Positions 410-34,647 of a stretch of DNA of 36,255 bases are shown in pieces. A model generated the notes under the pieces. That model did not search any database. It saw nothing but the letters and a program-made list of their open reading frames with translations, and was not told where the DNA came from. Within the stretch, counting starts at the first letter, position 1, and each line of letters opens with the position of its first letter. The stretch is taken from positions 1-36,255 of the IMG/VR virus record IMGVR_UViG_3300007960_000072. One strand, given 5' to 3'. The position numbers were made by a program, and so were the translations under genes. Origin of the DNA: a virus.

Positions 410-530
410 GGAACGGCAAACCTTATGAAATTTTACAACATATTACGGGAAGTTACAGAGCGAACATTATCAGAATTGCCGTTCCAAAATGTTCGCTCTT
501 TTCCCGTGAAATTTACAGGAACGGCAAATG
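410..530 (+). promoter_or_regulatory. Structured RNA element 1, candidate translational switch/pseudoknot
   Basis: This fills most of the 169-base gap before the initiator gene. Segment A1 (GGAACGGCAA, 410-419) is repeated as A2 (518-527), directly abutting the ATG at 528 and overlapping its Shine-Dalgarno. Between them lies a two-part hairpin: outer stem ACGGGAA/TTCCCGT (445-451/501-507), internal loop 6/2 bases, inner 11-bp stem 458-468/488-498. The 19-base loop contains TTGCCGTTCC (476-485), the exact complement of A1 and A2. Loop pairing with A2 would hide the start region; pairing with A1 would free it. Element 2 at 5121-5243 has the same plan with different bases. Complementarity is seen directly; the switch role is inferred. 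Confidence 0.65.
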
Positions 531-1079
531 AAAGAAAAGAGAATAAATCTTTTTAATCAAATAAAATCTTTCTATGAGTTAGTATGGCATGGTGATTTTG
601 ACTTTAAGCCTGCTCATATTTCATTGTATATATTTTTATTAAATCAGAACAATAGGACAAACTGGTCAACATGGTTTAAGTTACCACGTGATACTGGTAT
701 GCAAGGCTCCTGCATAGGTTCAAAAAAAACTTACTATAAGTGCCTATCTGATCTTGTGGAGCAAAAATTAATAAAGAAAGAAGATGGAAAAAATGAACAT
801 AAGGCACCAAGAATTTCAATACAACAATTAAAAAGAGGTGATGAAGTGCCTATTCCAGAGTACCACCAAGTGTACCACCTAGAGGGGCAAAAAGGGGACA
901 CAACCTATACCGCTACCTATACCGCTACTGACCCCTCTAGGGGGACACAACCTATACCGCTAGGGGTACGAGATAAAGACTATAAGACTATAGACTTAAA
1001 GACAGAAGACAATAAGAAAGAAATATATCCTAAGATAGAAGATCCAAGTAAGAAAAAACATAACGTATGGTGGGAATAA
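528..1079 (+). CDS. Replication initiator-like winged-helix protein with internal iterons
   Basis: A 183-residue protein. The N-terminal part (about 15-100) has the look of a winged-helix domain typical of phage replisome organizers, with a helix-turn-helix near PRDTGMQGSCIGSKKTYYK and a following LIKKEDG wing. A low-complexity Thr/Pro-rich linker (about 110-150) is encoded by tandem DNA repeats. A charged C-terminal tail ends in NVWWE and may contact the helicase. Placement just before a DnaB-like helicase matches lambda O-type or DnaD-type initiators carrying their own origin. The start is fixed by ACAGGA (516-520) and lies in structured element 1. Family membership is inferred from architecture. 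Confidence 0.6.
   Translation: MKEKRINLFNQIKSFYELVWHGDFDFKPAHISLYIFLLNQNNRTNWSTWFKLPRDTGMQGSCIGSKKTYYKCLSDLVEQKLIKKEDGKNEHKAPRISIQQLKRGDEVPIPEYHQVYHLEGQKGDTTYTATYTATDPSRGTQPIPLGVRDKDYKTIDLKTEDNKKEIYPKIEDPSKKKHNVWWE
861..962 (+). repeat. Iteron cluster inside the initiator gene, candidate replication origin
   Basis: Three perfect copies of CCTATACCGCTA begin at 904, 916 and 951. The first and third belong to a perfect 22-bp direct repeat (894-915 and 941-962) beginning GGGGACACAA. Two copies of TACCACC (861-867, 873-879) lie just upstream. CTAGAGGGG (879-887) and CCCCTCTAG (932-940) form an inverted repeat around the first copies. The block encodes the linker of the initiator, as the lambda origin iterons do within gene O. 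The repeats are seen directly; the origin role is inferred. Confidence 0.6.
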
Positions 1080-5069: not shown

Positions 5070-5087
5070 AAAATAAAGGTTGAAAAA
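5070..5087 (+). repeat. 18-bp direct repeat downstream of the methyltransferase
   Basis: Second exact copy of AAAATAAAGGTTGAAAAA, beginning right at the end of the methyltransferase stop codon. Confidence 0.8.
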
Positions 5088-5108
5088 GATAATAATAATT
5101 GCTAGTAT
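5080..5108 (+). promoter_or_regulatory. Candidate promoter ahead of structured element 2
   Basis: TTGAAA (5080-5085), a 17-base spacer and TAGTAT (5103-5108) fit a moderate sigma-70 promoter. Transcription would begin near 5115, just before segment A1 of the structured element. The match is partial, so this is a suggestion only. Confidence 0.3.
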
Positions 5109-5120
5109 TACTCATGTAGC

Positions 5121-5243
5121 GACTGGACCAAATCTCACTACAAAAATTTTTGCAAGCATATAGAGTAGAAACGCCTTTACACTGATGGTCCAGTCTCCTG
5201 CGTTTCTACTCTTGCTTGCTACTTTACAGGACTGGACCAAATG
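5121..5243 (+). promoter_or_regulatory. Structured RNA element 2, candidate translational switch/pseudoknot
   Basis: This occupies most of the 171-base gap before the lipoprotein-like gene. A1 is GACTGGACCA (5121-5130) and A2 is the same at 5230-5239, ending one base before the ATG at 5241. A two-part hairpin lies between: outer stem GCAAG/CTTGC (5152-5156/5215-5219), internal loop 5/2 bases, inner 13-bp stem 5162-5174/5200-5212. The 25-base loop holds TGGTCCAGTC (5186-5195), the exact complement of A1 and A2. Ten bases separate the outer stem from A2, as in element 1, and both share TTTACAGGA at that place. The plan is the same but all pairing bases differ, which is covariation. Confidence 0.65.
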
Positions 5244-5393
5244 AAACTACCAATACTAAGGACTGCACTACACCTTACATCATGGCTAATAATAGCCTAC
5301 TCAACCTCTGGATGCTCAAGAAATGTAGAGGTCATCATACTACATCACCCTGATTCACTTTCGTATAAACAGGCTTTGGAGGAACTAAAATGA
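5241..5393 (+). CDS. Small lipoprotein-like protein
   Basis: A 50-residue protein with a hydrophobic N-terminal segment (HLTSWLIIAYSTSG) followed by a cysteine at about residue 25, resembling a signal peptidase II lipobox (TSGC), although Thr at -3 is not the usual Leu. If processed, the mature part is only about 26 residues, as in Rz1-type lipopeptides. It lies far from the lysis-like genes, however. Its ATG abuts A2 of structured element 2, so its translation is the obvious target. It ends in an ATGA overlap with the next ORF. Confidence 0.5.
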   Translation: MKLPILRTALHLTSWLIIAYSTSGCSRNVEVIILHHPDSLSYKQALEELK

Positions 5394-6335: not shown

Positions 6336-6523
6336 CAATATGTTCTCGCTTGAAAGCTAAAACAGAATTACAACACGCTAAAAAGGCTGAAAACCTTAAA
6401 CTCTTCTTTAGCGACATTGGTGAAGAGGGATATATTCATGTACTCAGATTGGATAGACTCCAGGACGATTGCATCAGTAATTTCGTAAATGCAAATTATG
6501 GAGGTTGCCATGTACAGAGTTGA
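6332..6523 (+). CDS. Small hypothetical protein
   Basis: A 63-residue protein with a very good ribosome-binding site (GAAGGAGGG) and an ATGA overlap with the upstream gene. It opens with a basic helix (KAKTELQHAKKAENLKLFF) followed by a short beta-like region (YIHVLRLDRL). Its 3' end overlaps the next gene by 14 bases. No family is recognised. Confidence 0.5.
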   Translation: MTICSRLKAKTELQHAKKAENLKLFFSDIGEEGYIHVLRLDRLQDDCISNFVNANYGGCHVQS

Positions 6524-7025
6524 TGTATACAAGTGCGATACTTGTATAGGCACAAAGTATTTCGAGACACAGCAAGAGGCTGAGTTCTACGTAACATTTG
6601 AGGCTGAGGATGGCTTAAACTGTGAGATAGTATACGAGCCATATGATGATAGAGAGTCAATCTTAACATGGACGGTAAGGATTGTAGTATGGTTATTTTT
6701 GATATTGGTCACTTATTTGTTTATCGGTTGCTCTGATTTTATTGTTAATGAGAGGCCAGATAAAGATGTAATATACCAAGAATACATTGACATTGAAATA
6801 CCAAACCCAGAACACTCAATAATAGGCACATGGTATTATGTAGGGAGATACTCAACAATAGACGTTGAAGTAGTATCATATACTGTAGATTATATTGTAG
6901 AAAATCCGTTTAAAATGAGCGGTAAAGTTGTTTTTGAAGTAGATGACTTCAAATATCACTATCAGCTTGAGAATGACACATTAACCGTATATAGCCAAAA
7001 AAAAGAGATTAAATTTACAAGATAA
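6510..7025 (+). CDS. Membrane-anchored protein with lipocalin-like C-terminal part
   Basis: The ATG at 6510 is chosen because ATGGAGG precedes it; an in-frame ATG at 6489 lacks a site. It encodes about 171 residues. An N-terminal cytoplasmic-type region of about 50 residues with two cysteines (KCDTCIG) is followed by one strong membrane span (about 52-72, TVRIVVWLFLILVTYLFIG). The outside part is beta-rich: GTWYYVGRYS, a run of alternating strands and DTLTVYSQKKEIKF, recalling lipocalin-like fold repeats. It could display a small beta-barrel at the envelope, for example in superinfection exclusion, but that is speculation. Confidence 0.55.
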   Translation: MYRVDVYKCDTCIGTKYFETQQEAEFYVTFEAEDGLNCEIVYEPYDDRESILTWTVRIVVWLFLILVTYLFIGCSDFIVNERPDKDVIYQEYIDIEIPNPEHSIIGTWYYVGRYSTIDVEVVSYTVDYIVENPFKMSGKVVFEVDDFKYHYQLENDTLTVYSQKKEIKFTR

Positions 7026-7124: not shown

Positions 7125-8312
7125 GTGGAAATAGTTTTTAAAAACCCCGCTGATTTAATAGAAGCGGAGTATAACCCTCGTAAAATATCAGACGAGGATT
7201 TTAAGCAGTTAAAGAAATCTCTTTCTAATTTTGACTGTGTAGAGCCAATAGTTATAAATACCTATGCAGGTAGAGAAAACGTTATAATTGGCGGTCACCA
7301 AAGATTAAAAGCAATGAAAGCACTGGGATTTGAAGAAGTACCATGCGTTGAAGTTAATCTGCCAATAGATAAAGAAAAACAGCTTAATATAAGACTTAAT
7401 AAAAACTCAGGTGAATGGGACTTTGTAAAGCTAGATGCAGAGTTTGAATTAGATGAACTCACTGAGTGGGGATTCTTAGAAGATGAGCTTGAAGGTTTTG
7501 AAAACGTAACAGAGACAGAAGGATTAACAGAACCTGATTCAGTTCCAGAGATGCCAGAAGAGCCTAAAACTAAACTTGGGGATATATATGTATTAGGTAA
7601 CCATAGGTTAATGTGTGGTGACTCTACTAGTATCGATTCCGTTGAGAAGTTGATGGATGGGGAGAGAGCTGATTTGATTGTAACCGATCCGCCGTATAAT
7701 GTCGCATACGAAGGCAAAACAAAGGACGCATTAACAATACAGAACGATTCAATGGGCGATGAGTCTTTTTATCAATTTTTATACGATGTTCACGTAAATT
7801 ACTTTACGATCGCAAAAGAAGGTTGCGGGCTATATGTATTTCATGCTGATTTAGAAGGGCTTAATTTCAGGAGAGCATTTAAGGAATCTGGTTTTGACCT
7901 TAAACAGTGCTGTATATGGGTGAAGCAAACAATGGTAATGGGAAGGCAGGATTACCATTGGAAACATGAGCCAATACTTTATGGTTGGAAAGGCGGAGCT
8001 TCACACAATTGGTATACAGATAGAAAACAAACAACTATTTGGGAGTTTGATAGACCATTCAGAAATGATATACATCCGACAATGAAACCGATAGATTTAA
8101 TAGAGTATCCAATAAATAACTCGTCTAAGAATGGAGATATTGTTGTAGATTTTTTTGGCGGTTCAGGATCATGTTTGATAGCTTGTGAGAAAACAGGACG
8201 TAAAGCTAGATTAATGGAGCTAGACCCTAAATACTGTGATGTAATAGTAAAGAGATGGGAAGACTTTACTGGACAGAAAGCAGTACTTTTAAATGAGTCT
8301 GATTATGTCTAA
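7125..8312 (+). CDS. ParB-like nuclease domain fused to DNA methyltransferase
   Basis: A two-domain protein common in phages next to terminase genes. Residues about 5-100 are ParB/Srx-like: NPADLIEAEYNPR, then IIGGHQRLKAMKALG, then IRLNKNSGEWD. Residues about 140-390 are a beta-class methyltransferase: DPPYNVAY (about 188-195), a long target-recognition region, then VVDFFGGSGSCLIAC (about 340-354) and MELDPKYCDVIVKRWE. It probably methylates phage DNA before packaging, possibly at sites bound by the ParB-like domain. The GTG at 7125, with GAGG five bases upstream, is preferred to the GTG at 7119. The 3' end overlaps the small terminase gene. Confidence 0.88.
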   Translation: MEIVFKNPADLIEAEYNPRKISDEDFKQLKKSLSNFDCVEPIVINTYAGRENVIIGGHQRLKAMKALGFEEVPCVEVNLPIDKEKQLNIRLNKNSGEWDFVKLDAEFELDELTEWGFLEDELEGFENVTETEGLTEPDSVPEMPEEPKTKLGDIYVLGNHRLMCGDSTSIDSVEKLMDGERADLIVTDPPYNVAYEGKTKDALTIQNDSMGDESFYQFLYDVHVNYFTIAKEGCGLYVFHADLEGLNFRRAFKESGFDLKQCCIWVKQTMVMGRQDYHWKHEPILYGWKGGASHNWYTDRKQTTIWEFDRPFRNDIHPTMKPIDLIEYPINNSSKNGDIVVDFFGGSGSCLIACEKTGRKARLMELDPKYCDVIVKRWEDFTGQKAVLLNESDYV

Positions 8313-13210: not shown

Positions 13211-14016
13211 TGACTAATGAAAACAACGAAGTAGAAGAGCAAGAAGTTGAAACTGAAGTTACAGAAGAGGAAACTCAAGAAGTAGCAGAAGAGTCAGGTG
13301 AAGGCGAATCTACTGGAGATCCATCCGAAGAGGGTGAGGCCGAAAGTGTAAAGGCTGAAAAAGAAAAAGCACAAGCTGGTTTTTGGCAGAGACAGCAACA
13401 ACGGAAAGAAGAAACAGAACGGCTCAGACTTGAAAATGAAAGAATTTCAAGGGAGAGGGAGCATTTCAGACAGTTGGCAGAGCAACGACAAGCTCAACCT
13501 ACTAGGAGTGCCCCACAACTTTTACCACTTGAAAACTTTGAAACTGAAACTGAATGGCTTTATGCTAACATGCAAGCACTTAAGGAGCAGGAACAAAGAC
13601 AGGGAGCGGTAAAAGCAAAAACACAAACCTATGAGCAAAAGCTAAACGAATACAAACAAGTGTCTAAAGATATATATGCGTATGAGCAAGAAGTTGCAGA
13701 AATACTGAAAGACACTGGTAGATTGGATATAGCTGACGCAATTATGGAGAGTGATAAGGCAGCGCAGATAGTTGAAGCAATAGCATTAGATCCAACAAAA
13801 ATAGAGCCTTTGCTTAATGCTCGTTCAGCCTACGGGCTTGGTGCAGGCATTGCGAGACTTGAAAGTAGTTTGATTGAAAAGCCATCTATCTCAAATGCTC
13901 CCAAACCAAAGAAGTTACCAAAGGGAGAGCCGACACAATCAACTAGCCGTAACCCTGTCAACATGTCAAAAGCCGAATATTTTGAAATGAGAAGAAAACA
14001 ATTACAAGGAAAATAA
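13210..14016 (+). CDS. Scaffolding-like protein
   Basis: A 268-residue protein between portal and coat, where scaffold genes sit. The first 50 residues are extremely acidic (runs of Glu), followed by a Gln/Arg/Glu-rich coiled coil (about 55-100), a helical middle and a short basic C-terminus (MSKAEYFEMRRKQLQGK). The basic end is reminiscent of the coat-binding tail of P22 gp8. It starts in a TAATG overlap with the portal gene. The assignment rests on position and composition, not motif identity. Confidence 0.65.
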   Translation: MTNENNEVEEQEVETEVTEEETQEVAEESGEGESTGDPSEEGEAESVKAEKEKAQAGFWQRQQQRKEETERLRLENERISREREHFRQLAEQRQAQPTRSAPQLLPLENFETETEWLYANMQALKEQEQRQGAVKAKTQTYEQKLNEYKQVSKDIYAYEQEVAEILKDTGRLDIADAIMESDKAAQIVEAIALDPTKIEPLLNARSAYGLGAGIARLESSLIEKPSISNAPKPKKLPKGEPTQSTSRNPVNMSKAEYFEMRRKQLQGK

Positions 14017-14019
14017 AAA

Positions 14020-15252
14020 ATGGCTAATATTACAGAAAATATGACCGTTGTGAGCAAAGAAGCTCAGTTTGTATTTGAGTCAACATGTCTCACATACAAA
14101 ACTTTTAACACGCAGTACGATAAGTCTTACGAGTATGTAGGAGCTGCTGCTGGTTCAACAATCAACATTAAACAACCACATCGTCAATATGTTACAGATG
14201 GTCGATCAGTAGCTTCTGTTCAGGACGATGAGGAAAGAACAGTAGCTCTACCAAGAGCAACTTGGAAAAACATTACTCTTGGTTTTAACGCTCAAGAACT
14301 TGCGCAAGATCTCACTAAAAAAGAAAATGCAGAGAAGTTTTTTGGAAAAGCAAGACTTGACTCAAGCATTCAGGCGATGTCTGCTGCAATTGATACAGCG
14401 ACTTTGGCAAATGTTGTACCAAAGGTATTTAACTATACTCGCGGCGGAGAAACTACAGACCCTTCAAGCTATTCAGATGTTTTAGCTGTAAAAGCTAAGC
14501 TAGATGATTATCACGCTATGGGCAGTGACCGTACATTCCTACTTACAAATGGAGCTATGGTATCTCTAAATGCTGGTATGTCTGGATTTTTCAACAACGC
14601 CTCTAAAATCTCTGACAACTACAACTCTGGAGAGCTTGCGCCTTTTGGTGGGTTCATGTTCTACAACACAACTTACTTACCAAGACACACTAACGGTTCT
14701 GCTGCTACTGGTGCTGTTAAAACCACTCTTGCTGTAGAGGGTGCTACACAGATGGTTCTTGATACACTTGGTACTGATAATGTGTTGGTTGGCGACCGTT
14801 TTACAATTGCTGGTGTTTATCGCCGTGATTATGTTTCAAAAGCTGTTACTGGTGATCTCCAGCAGTTTGTTGTTACTGCTGCTACTGCTACAGTAGGGGG
14901 TGAGGCAACTGTAGATTTTTACCCAGCAATTGAAACCGAGGCAACAAATGCTTACGCAACAGTTGACAGCTTCCCACAAGCTACCGCTGTAGTTACATTT
15001 GCTGGTAATCGTGGTGCTTCTCAATCTGTAAACCTTGCTTATCACAAAGATGCGTTTGTGCTTGCATTTGTTGACCTTCCTAGAGTTGGTGTTACAACTG
15101 AAAGTTATGTTCGTGATGCTGAAGCTGGTTACTCTATGAAGATCTCAGGACAAGGTGATATTATGGAGCTTCAATCAGTAATGCGTCTCGATGCATTGTT
15201 TGGTTCTGCTGCTGTTAATCCTTGGTGGGCTTGTATCATATACGGTGCATAA
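14020..15252 (+). CDS. Major capsid protein (P22 coat-like)
   Basis: A 410-residue HK97-fold shell protein. Features matching the P22 coat group are the long N-terminal arm with RATWKNITLGFNAQELAQDL, the IQAMSAAIDTATLANVV helix, and an insertion-domain-like strand region (LVGDRFTIAGVYRRDYVSKA). The C-terminal part contains SMKISGQGDIMELQSVMRLD and ends at WWACIIYGA, comparable to the gp5 end ISTLSGLCRIALWYG. AAGGAAA precedes the ATG. It is followed by a GC-rich hairpin, as expected for a highly expressed coat gene. Confidence 0.85.
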   Translation: MANITENMTVVSKEAQFVFESTCLTYKTFNTQYDKSYEYVGAAAGSTINIKQPHRQYVTDGRSVASVQDDEERTVALPRATWKNITLGFNAQELAQDLTKKENAEKFFGKARLDSSIQAMSAAIDTATLANVVPKVFNYTRGGETTDPSSYSDVLAVKAKLDDYHAMGSDRTFLLTNGAMVSLNAGMSGFFNNASKISDNYNSGELAPFGGFMFYNTTYLPRHTNGSAATGAVKTTLAVEGATQMVLDTLGTDNVLVGDRFTIAGVYRRDYVSKAVTGDLQQFVVTAATATVGGEATVDFYPAIETEATNAYATVDSFPQATAVVTFAGNRGASQSVNLAYHKDAFVLAFVDLPRVGVTTESYVRDAEAGYSMKISGQGDIMELQSVMRLDALFGSAAVNPWWACIIYGA

Positions 15253-16353: not shown

Positions 16354-17873
16354 TGTCTAGAGTTGAACTATCTGCAAGATATGGAAAGGATTCTGCTCAG
16401 CAATTTGATTCTAGAGAATGTCAAAACATGGTTCCATCTTATTATGAGACCGGAACTGGCAAAGGATCATATAAATATAGTTCAGTTTGGGGGTATGAGC
16501 ACGTTGAAGAGATAGGAAGGGGCGATTTTTTCCATGGTAGTTACGTTGTTCAGCCAAATAAATACAGCTCTTCAGAAAGACTTTTTTGTTTAAATGGATT
16601 AGATTTATATGAAGTTTTTTCTAATGGAACAAGTACTTTAAGAGCTACTCTAACGGGTTTTATCAATAGTGATGCTATTGTTAGGTTTGCTGATAATGGG
16701 TTGGTAATGTGTATTGTTTCAGGCGGTGGTGATGCATGGTTTTATGATTTATCTTCAGCAAGTACAGCGTCTTTAATAACAGACCCAGATTTTCCTTCCA
16801 CTGTAATTGATGTTGTATATATAGATACTTATTTTGTATGGCTTGAGGGAAGAGGAAGCGGAAATAGAATATTTATATCTGACAACTATGCCACAGACCC
16901 TGCTAACTGCGTTAACGCTTTAGATTTTACAGTAGCAGAAAGTCAACCTGATAATGCAATAAGACTAATGGTTCTAAATGGTGAGTTATTAGTGTTTGGC
17001 AATACAACAATTGAGTTTTATTATAATAGTGGTAATGTTGATTTCCCATTCGATATAAATAAAGGAGTAACACAAAACATAGGTTGCTTTTCTCCTAATT
17101 CAATAGTAAAGATGGATAACATAATAGTTTTTAACGGGAAAACAAGCGCAAGCAATAATGGTATATATGTATTAAGCAATTATCAACTTCAGGAAATATC
17201 AGATAAATACATAGTACAAGCATTGTATGGTTATTCTAGTACAAAGATGAGTTCAATTAGTCTAAAAGAAGATTTTAGTTATTTTTATTGTTTTTATTTG
17301 AATAATTTAATGTACTGCTATGATTTTAGCACTGGCTTATGGAGTACTAGAACTCAAGAAAATGCACTTGGAGTTACAGTTCCATATGGATCAAGAATAT
17401 CTTCAAGCTTTTTTGGTTATAACTATTTCTTCAGTACAGCTATAATACCTATAAATACAGTATCAAATATTTTTATCCAAAAAAAAGATATATACACTAC
17501 TGATGAAGTTACAAATAATACAACTTTAGCACCTATTGAGAAAATAAATATAAGCAGAAAATTAATATTGCCAAATATTTCACAAGAAAACAAAAACATT
17601 CAAATTAACAGATTTGAAATGGATATACAAAAAGGTGTTGGAAATGTTGATGATGCTGATCCTGAAATAAGCCTTTCTATGAGCCGTGATGGTGGTATGA
17701 CATACGGTAACGCAAGAGCGCTAAAAATTGGCGCAAGTGGAGCATATAGGGGAAGAGTAAAAGCAAGTATGCTTGGTACGGCTCGCGATGCTGTATTTAA
17801 AATAGAATCAGATAGCCCTGTTCAGCAAGAATGGTTTTGCGCTTACATTGATTATGAGGTAATGGATGAGTAG
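16353..17873 (+). CDS. Packaged DNA stabilisation/tail hub protein (P22 gp10-like)
   Basis: This forms the lower part of the tail tube and plugs the channel. A GTG start overlaps the previous stop. The 506-residue sequence has the beta-propeller-like repeat character of gp10 and conserved-looking features: TYFVWLEGRGSGNRIFISDN, FTVAESQPDNAIRLMVLNGEL, VFGNTTIEFYYNSG and DNIIVFNGKT. The C-terminal jelly-roll-like part ends SDSPVQQEWFCAYIDYEV. Order after the gp4-like gene agrees with the P22 arrangement. I see no obvious gp26-type needle gene next to it. Confidence 0.78.
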   Translation: MSRVELSARYGKDSAQQFDSRECQNMVPSYYETGTGKGSYKYSSVWGYEHVEEIGRGDFFHGSYVVQPNKYSSSERLFCLNGLDLYEVFSNGTSTLRATLTGFINSDAIVRFADNGLVMCIVSGGGDAWFYDLSSASTASLITDPDFPSTVIDVVYIDTYFVWLEGRGSGNRIFISDNYATDPANCVNALDFTVAESQPDNAIRLMVLNGELLVFGNTTIEFYYNSGNVDFPFDINKGVTQNIGCFSPNSIVKMDNIIVFNGKTSASNNGIYVLSNYQLQEISDKYIVQALYGYSSTKMSSISLKEDFSYFYCFYLNNLMYCYDFSTGLWSTRTQENALGVTVPYGSRISSSFFGYNYFFSTAIIPINTVSNIFIQKKDIYTTDEVTNNTTLAPIEKINISRKLILPNISQENKNIQINRFEMDIQKGVGNVDDADPEISLSMSRDGGMTYGNARALKIGASGAYRGRVKASMLGTARDAVFKIESDSPVQQEWFCAYIDYEVMDE

Positions 17874-30156: not shown

Positions 30157-30465
30157 TTATAAATCAGACTCTTTCACAAAAGTCCCGTTTCTCATCTCGC
30201 CTTTTCTGTCTTTAATCTTATGCCATGCTCTTTCCATGCACTCTTCTGGCATCATTTGTATCATCTTGCAAAGGTTATGGAGTGTAACATAACAATCGCC
30301 TATCTCTAATGAAAGATCATTGATAGAGCCATTGTAATAGGCATCTTTAACTTCTCCAGCCTCTTCAAGTAGTTTGATAAGCTGTCCTTCAGCTGTCCCT
30401 TCTGAGTAGATTTTTCTTTCCTCTGCCCAGTTAGTCACATTATATTTGAATGTTTCAAATGTCAT
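30157..30465 (-). CDS. MazG-like nucleotide pyrophosphohydrolase
   Basis: A 102-residue all-helical protein with the MazG-type metal-binding pattern: LLEEAGEVKDAY, then LEIGDCYVTLHNLC, ending in RKGEMRNGTFVKESDL. EExxE and ExxD supply magnesium ligands. Such phage enzymes cleave nucleoside triphosphates or ppGpp-related signals and shift host nucleotide metabolism. It is the last gene of the minus-strand operon, and AAAGGA precedes the start. Confidence 0.75.
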   Translation of the reverse strand: MTFETFKYNVTNWAEERKIYSEGTAEGQLIKLLEEAGEVKDAYYNGSINDLSLEIGDCYVTLHNLCKMIQMMPEECMERAWHKIKDRKGEMRNGTFVKESDL

Positions 30466-30468
30466 TTA

Positions 30469-30897
30469 TTATCCTTTAAGATGTGGTAACTCTATTTCGA
30501 GTAACCCGTTTATTATTTCCTTACTCTTTTTCTGATGATTTAGCACAGCGTAACAGTATTGTTTAATCTGCTCTGCTATCGGCCTCCATTCTATTTCATC
30601 CATCTCAGCAAAAGAGAATGATTTGTACATTTTTGCTATAGATCCATCCTTGCGAGGCATTGACTTGTAATGCCCGTATGTATCTTTAAACCAAAAATAA
30701 AGATCGTCTGAGTCTTGAAGGTGGTCAAATCTATCCATGTGCCTTGAAGTATATCCGAGCATCGCCCAAACTAGTTTGTGGTGTTTTGGGTTGCGTGGTT
30801 TCGTAATAGTTACAAAAACATCTTCTTCCATTATGGTTTCTGATTTGCCTTCATAATGAACAAATGCTTGTATGCTGTCTACTAATTGGTTCTTCAT
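30469..30897 (-). CDS. DUF1367 family protein
   Basis: A 142-residue protein matching phage DUF1367 members: KPRNPKHHKLVWAMLGYTSRH near residue 33, a Trp/Phe-rich middle, then KMYKSFSFAEMDEIEWRPIAE and LLEIELPHLKG. Function is unknown, but it is commonly found in the nin-like or recombination regions of phages, in keeping with its place after an HNH-like gene and a Rad52-like annealing gene. Overlaps the upstream gene by four bases. Confidence 0.75.
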   Translation of the reverse strand: MKNQLVDSIQAFVHYEGKSETIMEEDVFVTITKPRNPKHHKLVWAMLGYTSRHMDRFDHLQDSDDLYFWFKDTYGHYKSMPRKDGSIAKMYKSFSFAEMDEIEWRPIAEQIKQYCYAVLNHQKKSKEIINGLLEIELPHLKG

Positions 30898-31220: not shown

Positions 31221-31705
31221 TACTTAACCTGTAAATTAAGGTTAGTCACTAGCTTTGCACCTTCAATCTCATTACCTGCTTTGATAGATGCTTGGATAGC
31301 TTTTTTGTCAACCTTCCAACATTCAGGAATATGGTTACATAGCTCTTTTGGTATCTTTGTTTCATCCAGTATCTCAACGGATTGACTCTTTCTGATAGAG
31401 ATTTTCGAGTATTGGTCTTGGTGCTCTTCTCCTGCCTCCATATTGTGAGACACATATAATTTAAACCATTCTACACGCTTCTCAATTGCTTTTCTGCGTT
31501 CAGCAAGTGCCTTCTCTTCCTCTTTTATCATGTTGGCTAATGCTGTTTCGTTCTTAATATATCTAGCGCAGTTGAGTAGTTTCTCTGCTTTTTTTGAAAA
31601 CATTTCGTCAATGTCTGCTTCAAAACCATCCTGAATGACTCCGTCTCCATCTATAGCGGAATCAATTAATCTCTGTAAGTCTCTGTTTATTTCATATAAG
31701 TTCAT
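31220..31705 (-). CDS. Siphovirus Gp157-family protein
   Basis: A 161-residue protein with the Gp157 order: helical N-terminus, long Glu/Lys coiled coil (MIKEEEKALAERRKAIEKRV), WFKLYVSHNMEA, then ISIRKSQSVEILDETKIPKE and WKVDKKAIQASIKAG. Members are linked to phage recombination and, in some hosts, to resistance against abortive systems. It lies directly after the single-strand annealing gene; the start overlaps the upstream stop as TAATG. Confidence 0.82.
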   Translation of the reverse strand: MNLYEINRDLQRLIDSAIDGDGVIQDGFEADIDEMFSKKAEKLLNCARYIKNETALANMIKEEEKALAERRKAIEKRVEWFKLYVSHNMEAGEEHQDQYSKISIRKSQSVEILDETKIPKELCNHIPECWKVDKKAIQASIKAGNEIEGAKLVTNLNLQVK

Positions 31706-33808: not shown

Positions 33809-34184
33809 ATTTCGTTTTTGGTGTGAAAAATACAAACAATATATTGATGATAAAGTTTTGATTGATGAAGATGGTTCTGTACTTGAGTATATAGATTCAG
33901 ACTATGAAAATTATCTTAGGAAAGTTGATTATATACCAGAGCAATACACAGGACTCAAAGACAGGAACGGAGTAGAGATTTATGAAGGTGATATAGTTAA
34001 GACGTGCACAGATTTAAAATGTGAAGTGATATTTAAAGACGGAGGATTCTGCTATAAAAAAACAAATTCATTCTACATTGATTACATACATTTTGGAGGA
34101 CACAATTACTTAAGCACTGTTCTTGATTGTGGAGTTATCGGAAATGTAAGGGAGAACCCTGAGCTATTGGAGGTAAAGCCATGA
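33795..34184 (+). CDS. YopX family protein
   Basis: A 129-residue protein with the YopX pattern: REFKFRFWCEKYKQYI start, then YTGLKDRNGVEIYEGDIV, a beta-barrel centre and GVIGNVRENPELLE near the end. The family is widespread in phages and of unknown biochemical role. AAGGAGGTGA gives a near-perfect ribosome-binding site, suggesting high translation. Confidence 0.85.
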   Translation: MREFKFRFWCEKYKQYIDDKVLIDEDGSVLEYIDSDYENYLRKVDYIPEQYTGLKDRNGVEIYEGDIVKTCTDLKCEVIFKDGGFCYKKTNSFYIDYIHFGGHNYLSTVLDCGVIGNVRENPELLEVKP

Positions 34185-34318: not shown

Positions 34319-34647
34319 AAAAAACAATAAAACAGCAGATACTTGATCGCCTTAATGAAGGGTATACTCTTACATACGGTCAGGCTAATACTATCACAAA
34401 TAGTCAATCAGGCTACAGAAGGCTTCAGGAGATACTAAAAGATAATCCTGAAAAGTACAGATATGTTAAGGTTAAGTCTGAAAATGGCGGTTATTATAAT
34501 GTATTTGCACAAAAAAAATGTTTTTACGTCTGGCGAACATCTACAGGTGCCAATTTAGTATGCGGAATAAATGATGATTTTATGTCTGAAAAAGCATATA
34601 AAACCAGAAAAGAAGCTCTGGCTCAGATAAAGAAGGTGGTAAGATGA
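34315..34647 (+). CDS. Hypothetical protein with N-terminal helix-turn-helix-like start
   Basis: A 110-residue protein. Residues 3-50 (KQQILDRLNEGYTLTYGQAN, then QSGYRRLQEILKDNPEKY) look like a small winged helix that opens many phage proteins. The C-terminal half is beta-rich (YYNVFAQKKCFYVWRTS). Starts in an ATGA overlap with the tiny membrane gene. Possibly DNA-binding. Confidence 0.5.
   Translation: MKKTIKQQILDRLNEGYTLTYGQANTITNSQSGYRRLQEILKDNPEKYRYVKVKSENGGYYNVFAQKKCFYVWRTSTGANLVCGINDDFMSEKAYKTRKEALAQIKKVVR

Follow-up and report, generated by a model that had tools for sequence, protein, structure and literature searches.

The stretch of DNA analysed here, referred to as the window, is the virus record IMGVR_UViG_3300007960_000072 over its 36,255 bases, which carries genes for a P22-type portal, a coat protein, a terminase, Erf and a DnaB-like helicase. 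Two of its intergenic gaps, of 169 and 171 nt, hold the elements E1 (410-527) and E2 (5121-5239), respectively. Each comprises two identical 10-nt copies of a sequence A (A1 upstream, A2 downstream) flanking a predicted hairpin, the loop of which contains the reverse complement, A'. The features are as follows.

410..419, + strand: E1 A1, GGAACGGCAA (sequence)
445..507, + strand: E1 hairpin (RNA folding, -28 kcal/mol)
476..485, + strand: E1 A', TTGCCGTTCC in the loop, exact complement of both E1 A copies
518..527, + strand: E1 A2, downstream GGAACGGCAA copy (sequence), abutting ATG 528
528..1079, + strand: putative target gene of E1, encoding a 183-aa putative replication protein, directly upstream of the DnaB-like helicase gene
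5080..5108, + strand: candidate promoter of E2, TTGAAA-17-TAGTAT with a TG extension (consensus scan, 9/12)
5121..5130, + strand: E2 A1, upstream GACTGGACCA copy (sequence)
5152..5219, + strand: E2 hairpin (RNA folding, about -33 kcal/mol)
5186..5195, + strand: E2 A', TGGTCCAGTC in the hairpin loop, exact reverse complement of both A copies
5230..5239, + strand: E2 A2, downstream GACTGGACCA copy (sequence), ending one base short of ATG 5241
5241..5393, + strand: putative target gene of E2, encoding a 50-aa protein with a hydrophobic N-terminal stretch and a lipobox-like TSGC

The E2 repeats and their loop complement, and the position of the second element at 410, agree with a preliminary description of this DNA. 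That description had drawn the E2 hairpin as 5 bp + 13 bp with a 5/2 internal loop; the minimum free energy structure is instead a lower stem of 7 bp (5152-5158/5213-5219), a 3-nt 5' bulge (5159-5161) and an upper stem of 13 bp (5162-5174/5200-5212), 20 bp in total, closing a loop at 5175-5199. The E1 hairpin, by the same method, has 8 bp (445-452/500-507), a 4-nt bulge (453-456) and 12 bp (457-468/488-499), again 20 bp in total, with its loop at 469-487.

Over 80 aa, the 183-aa protein is 36% identical to the replication protein of the Tenacibaculum phage Gundel_1 (E 1e-4), and the helicase gene that follows was assigned as DnaB-like by PHROGs; AlphaFold modelling of the 183-aa protein gave a pLDDT of 39, too low for use. 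No known relatives were found for the 50-aa protein downstream of E2. Lipobox-like motifs occur in two small proteins of the early region, TSGC (5241-5393) and FIGC (6489-7025), which may be envelope or exclusion proteins. As no integrase or CI-type repressor was recognised among the window proteins searched, any lysogenic role of the elements is hypothetical.

A Shine-Dalgarno-like motif precedes 32 of the 42 listed starts, so occlusion of start sites should matter in this phage. In E1, A2 covers the GGA of the Shine-Dalgarno sequence (517-520) and the entire spacer to ATG 528, while in E2 it overlaps the last two bases of the Shine-Dalgarno AGGA (5228-5231) plus the spacer toward ATG 5241; pairing with the loop would therefore be expected to block translation. 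From the candidate E2 promoter, transcripts would be expected to start at ~5114-5116, placing A1 close to the RNA 5' end, with the caveat that the scan returned 3 sites vs 1.6 expected in shuffles and is weak on its own. A scan of the E1 leader revealed no recognisable promoter, its sole TATAAC being placed such that transcripts would start within A1. Neither leader contains an intrinsic terminator or a terminator-like T run 3' of the hairpin.

The E1 leader also contains a 43-codon open frame (425-556), with a Shine-Dalgarno sequence overlapping A1, that crosses the hairpin and continues past ATG 528 in a different frame (chance ~4% per ATG). Leader-peptide control was rejected as a common mechanism, such a frame being present in E1 and absent from E2.

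The shared plan of E1 and E2

The window contains no 10-nt A..A'..A triplets apart from E1 and E2, and searching both strands for hairpin loops under relaxed conditions revealed no third element. Among 300 dinucleotide-preserving shuffles of the window, a triplet of at least 10 nt arose once, and triplets of at least 8 nt with a stem of at least 10 bp arose six times; none of at least 9 nt with a stem of at least 10 bp was found in the 2.36 Mb of other real phage and virus DNA gathered. That one window should have two triplets, both combined with a 20-bp hairpin and abutting an ATG, is not due to chance, and the earlier proposal that selection acts on an RNA plan adjoining the start codon is borne out by a frequency well above random expectation.

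The spacing of the two elements is nearly the same (A1-A' distance 65-66 nt, A'-A2 distance 42-44 nt), whereas their A sequences differ. Cognate A:A' duplexes are predicted at -16.4 kcal/mol (E1) and -17.5 kcal/mol (E2), compared with only -3.2 and -3.8 kcal/mol for cross-pairing; given the different A sequences and this weak cross-pairing, E1 and E2 are orthogonal and would be separate switches. The 9-mer TTTACAGGA, described earlier as the sole sequence in common, is indeed shared, its only exact matches lying in E1 and E2 at offset 102 from A1 in each, but it is not alone, as both upper stems also open with AGAG/CTCT.

A common plan, TTTACAGGA and AGAG/CTCT are, as sequence evidence, too little to establish E1 and E2 as one homologous family, and their pairing does not prove homology, because two unrelated hairpins would each pair just as well. 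The preliminary designation of the two as a covarying RNA family thus goes too far for E1 and E2 alone; three-way covariation is seen in the leaders of Riemerella phages described below.

Comparison with known antisense RNAs

The C4 and CI RNAs are textbook examples of RNA-based phage immunity. The preliminary description knew of no named RNA family built in this way; the plan is, however, present in P4 CI (seqA/seqB/seqC), P1 C4 (a1b1/a'b'/a2b2) and N15 CA. In P4 CI RNA, seqB is complementary to the upstream seqA and the downstream seqC (PMC4825925). P1 C4 blocks ribosome binding sites (PMC5320573); according to that paper and the annotation of the P1 record, its loops pair with upstream targets and across the icd start site. 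Proteobacteria and phages are the reported sources of the published C4 motif (PMC2864571). Our triplet finder recovers all three as controls, in P4 (TTCACAGG), P1 (GTTAGTG, TTGACAG) and N15 (ACAAGAAG), and the Rfam C4 model (RF01695) matches P1, P4 and N15 at 69-79 bits.

P4 CI (RF01695 match; leader RF01394, isrK) is like E1 and E2 in the order of A1, a structured RNA exposing A', and A2 at an initiation region (TTCACAGGAGG). Its complementarity is 8 nt, with A1-A' and A'-A2 distances of 188 and 79 nt, as compared to 10 nt, 65-66 nt and 42-44 nt in the window, and its three-way-junction RNA and the terminator after seqA are absent from the window elements. P4 CI controls replication genes; E1 precedes a putative replication gene, but E2 does not. 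P1/P7 C4 (RF01695) likewise has loops complementary to upstream (a1/b1) and start-site (a2/b2, at icd) targets in the same transcript, and acts by blocking translation. It employs two 7-nt loops in a 77-nt, RNase P-processed RNA directed at icd-ant, in contrast to the one 10-nt loop of E1 and E2. N15 CA RNA (RF01695 match) resembles the window elements in having ACAAGAAG upstream, the complement in a loop and TACAAGA downstream, but differs in its C4 fold and in its 7-8 nt complementarity.

The complementarity that serves as a criterion for C4, that of a loop to both an upstream copy and the initiation region of the following gene, is found in E1 and in E2, at 10/10 nt on both sides. A search of the whole window yielded no gathering-threshold match to any Rfam family, and the C4 covariance model (RF01695) matched neither E1 nor E2 even at E<=10. 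Both fold as a single hairpin with one long loop, whereas C4 has three stems (P1, P2, P3); the tetraloop and the loops a'/b' of C4 are absent. E1 and E2 would therefore work like C4/CI but are not members of the Rfam C4 family, given the lack of a covariance match at E<=10 and of a three-way junction.

Searches for related elements

Protein searches of viral contigs (terminase, portal, helicase, replication protein and methylase queries) returned no close relative with E1 or E2; they yielded only distant phages and a relative with an 80% identical terminase (IMGVR 3300007960_001084), the contig of which does not include the E1/E2 region. As this contig lacks the replication region, homologues of E1 and E2 may lie on other contigs of the same virus. 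Bacterial genomes searched with the terminase gave no relative, and scans for the exact triple were negative for E1 in viral contigs and for E2 in genome contigs. DNA similarity searches (E1 against phages, E2 against phages and plasmids) gave chance-level matches only, and no comparable element was present in ten distant P22-portal phages. MW202557 has palindromic GTGAGTACTCACA repeats that form a family between genes (7191-7460 and 38463-38548) and are perhaps operators.

Tracing relatives of the 183-aa replication protein into flavobacterial phages led to the Riemerella phages RAP44 and CRP6, each of which has two full, C4-like A1-A'-A2 leaders ahead of antirepressor operons.

RAP44 leaders: 13712-13910 (+ strand) and 30372-30567 (- strand)
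CRP6 leaders: 14863-15062 (+ strand) and 31290-31496 (- strand)

The plan recurs outside C4, in viruses infecting bacteria of the sea and of ducks; RAP44 and CRP6 are an independent occurrence, and a search of RAP44 with the Rfam C4 model gave no match. Each RAP44 triple lies directly 3' of a TATATTTG promoter, and its A2 overlaps the start codon of an operon in which the antirepressor is the last gene. In RAP44 and CRP6, A1:A' pairing spans 15 bp, and A':A2 pairing spans 12-13 bp that overlap the AUG. The scaffold is conserved across the four leaders, while the 12-nt A occurs in three specificities, with five variable positions that are all compensated in A1, A' and A2. Because every change in A is matched in all three segments, the sequences are direct evidence of selection for A' pairing to each of the two copies.

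These leaders share with E1 and E2 the full triple, the position of A2 on a start codon and the presence of several specificities; unlike E1 and E2, they have a longer scaffold, an inner hairpin, a T run, a Bacteroidetes TAnnTTTG promoter and an antirepressor target. Their operons run leader RNA, small gene, antirepressor, an arrangement like that of P1 c4-icd-ant.

Leaders with A1 and a loop A' but no A2 were encountered in the flavobacterial phages Gundel_1 (two), P12002L and Freya_1/Danklef_1; the locations follow, two of them in the flavobacterial phage genomes L244 and L242.

Gundel_1: 16777-16890 and 33891-33996
P12002L: about 34376-34490 (- strand)
L244: 36634-36730
L242: 28556-28655

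Those of Gundel_1 precede the replication gene (in a 169-nt gap, as for E1) and an antirepressor gene, and that of P12002L precedes the replication gene. The reduced leaders have promoter-to-A1 distances of 19-24 nt and A1-to-A' distances of 48-58 nt, and most end in a T run. They are leads only, since the promoter-plus-hairpin count in six flavobacterial phages barely exceeded that in shuffles, and the filter on geometry and position that returned 0 in 60 shuffled sets used a window chosen after the hits were known. Lacking A2, the leaders of the flavobacterial replication genes and of the Gundel_1 antirepressor gene may attenuate transcription instead.

Proposed mechanism and alternative readings

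We interpret E1 and E2 as compact, single-hairpin antisense off-switches of the C4/CI type, situated in the leader RNAs of the downstream genes, and assign this reading a probability of about 0.68. The loop A' is antisense to A2, and so to some of the Shine-Dalgarno sequence and to the spacer of the downstream gene; if the leaders are transcribed, A':A2 pairing would block ribosome start and turn the gene off, either as a pseudoknot within one RNA or through a processed hairpin acting in trans on other copies, in which case immunity might follow. A1 would be a second identical target near the RNA 5' end that pairs with A' once the latter has been transcribed, and that gives way as the 3' arm of the hairpin folds; it may serve as a competitor that briefly holds the gene open or as an upstream target, as in P4. 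The E1 switch would guard the putative replication gene, and the E2 switch a small lipoprotein-like gene.

In prefix folding of both elements, the A1:A' pairing probability is 0.97-0.98 once A' has been made and 0.00 after the 3' arm. Nested folding cannot represent the A':A2 pseudoknot together with the hairpin; judging from the loop lengths (7 and 2 nt flanking A' in E1, 11 and 4 nt in E2) and the 10-nt spacer to A2, A' on the finished hairpin should be able to reach A2, and A1 should not be fully accessible to it in the same molecule.

The same folding order could also reflect a purely cis-acting co-transcriptional timer, in which A1 takes A' first, leaving A2 free early, and the finished 20-bp hairpin then frees A' to shut the start site. 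Prefix folding yields exactly this order in E1 and E2, and, by geometry, the loop asymmetry and 10-nt spacer would favour A':A2 over A1:A' on the finished hairpin. However, a timer has no need of an exact A1, which is nonetheless exact in all full elements and pairs over a greater length than A2 in RAP44 and CRP6, and the plan matches the trans-acting systems P1 C4 and P4 CI; we consider a timer possible but rather unlikely. An attenuator, in which A1:A' pairing decides if transcription stops at the hairpin and A2 plays a secondary part, draws on the Gundel_1 replication, Danklef/Freya and P12002L hairpins, which end in T7-T9 runs and have A1/A' without A2. It is improbable for the window, where no terminator-like T run follows either hairpin and E1 and E2 both retain a perfect A2 on the start site. 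We regard translation block as more likely than termination.

Readings that dispense with the pairing fare worse. In each hairpin a small 5' bulge tops a stem of 7-8 bp, and the upper stem begins with AGAG/CTCT, as might be expected of an operator bound by a protein, for example the downstream gene product, with the A copies incidental; such an operator would leave unexplained the perfect 10-nt complementarity to two flanking copies and the constancy of the plan while A differs, and seems very improbable. As DNA, A1 and A2 are direct repeats flanking a palindrome, reminiscent of a mobile insertion with target-site duplication or of a recombination or replication signal. Duplication yields no loop complement, however, both sites lie on start codons in gaps of 169 and 171 nt, and no empty-site relative was seen. 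This reading we find scarcely credible, and a mobile insertion or recombination site was rejected for leaving the loop complement unexplained.

Implications

The novelty of E1 and E2 lies in the variant and in the evidence for a plan that extends beyond the C4 family; they are not categorically new. The plan can be written as a simple rule for searches, A - stem A' stem - A at a start codon, for elements that sequence-profile libraries miss, and offers a candidate minimal orthogonal RNA switch. A 118-nt single-hairpin form found twice in one phage, together with the swapped code words of the Riemerella phages, would show that it is the plan that is kept, rather than the fold. We tentatively raise the prospect, at somewhat less than even odds, that self-encoded antisense control is a design which phages use generally at start codons, realised on many unrelated folds rather than in one family and reaching well beyond C4 into Bacteroidetes phages, and that one phage may carry several orthogonal copies, which give its replication and its antirepressor genes distinct immunity specificities.
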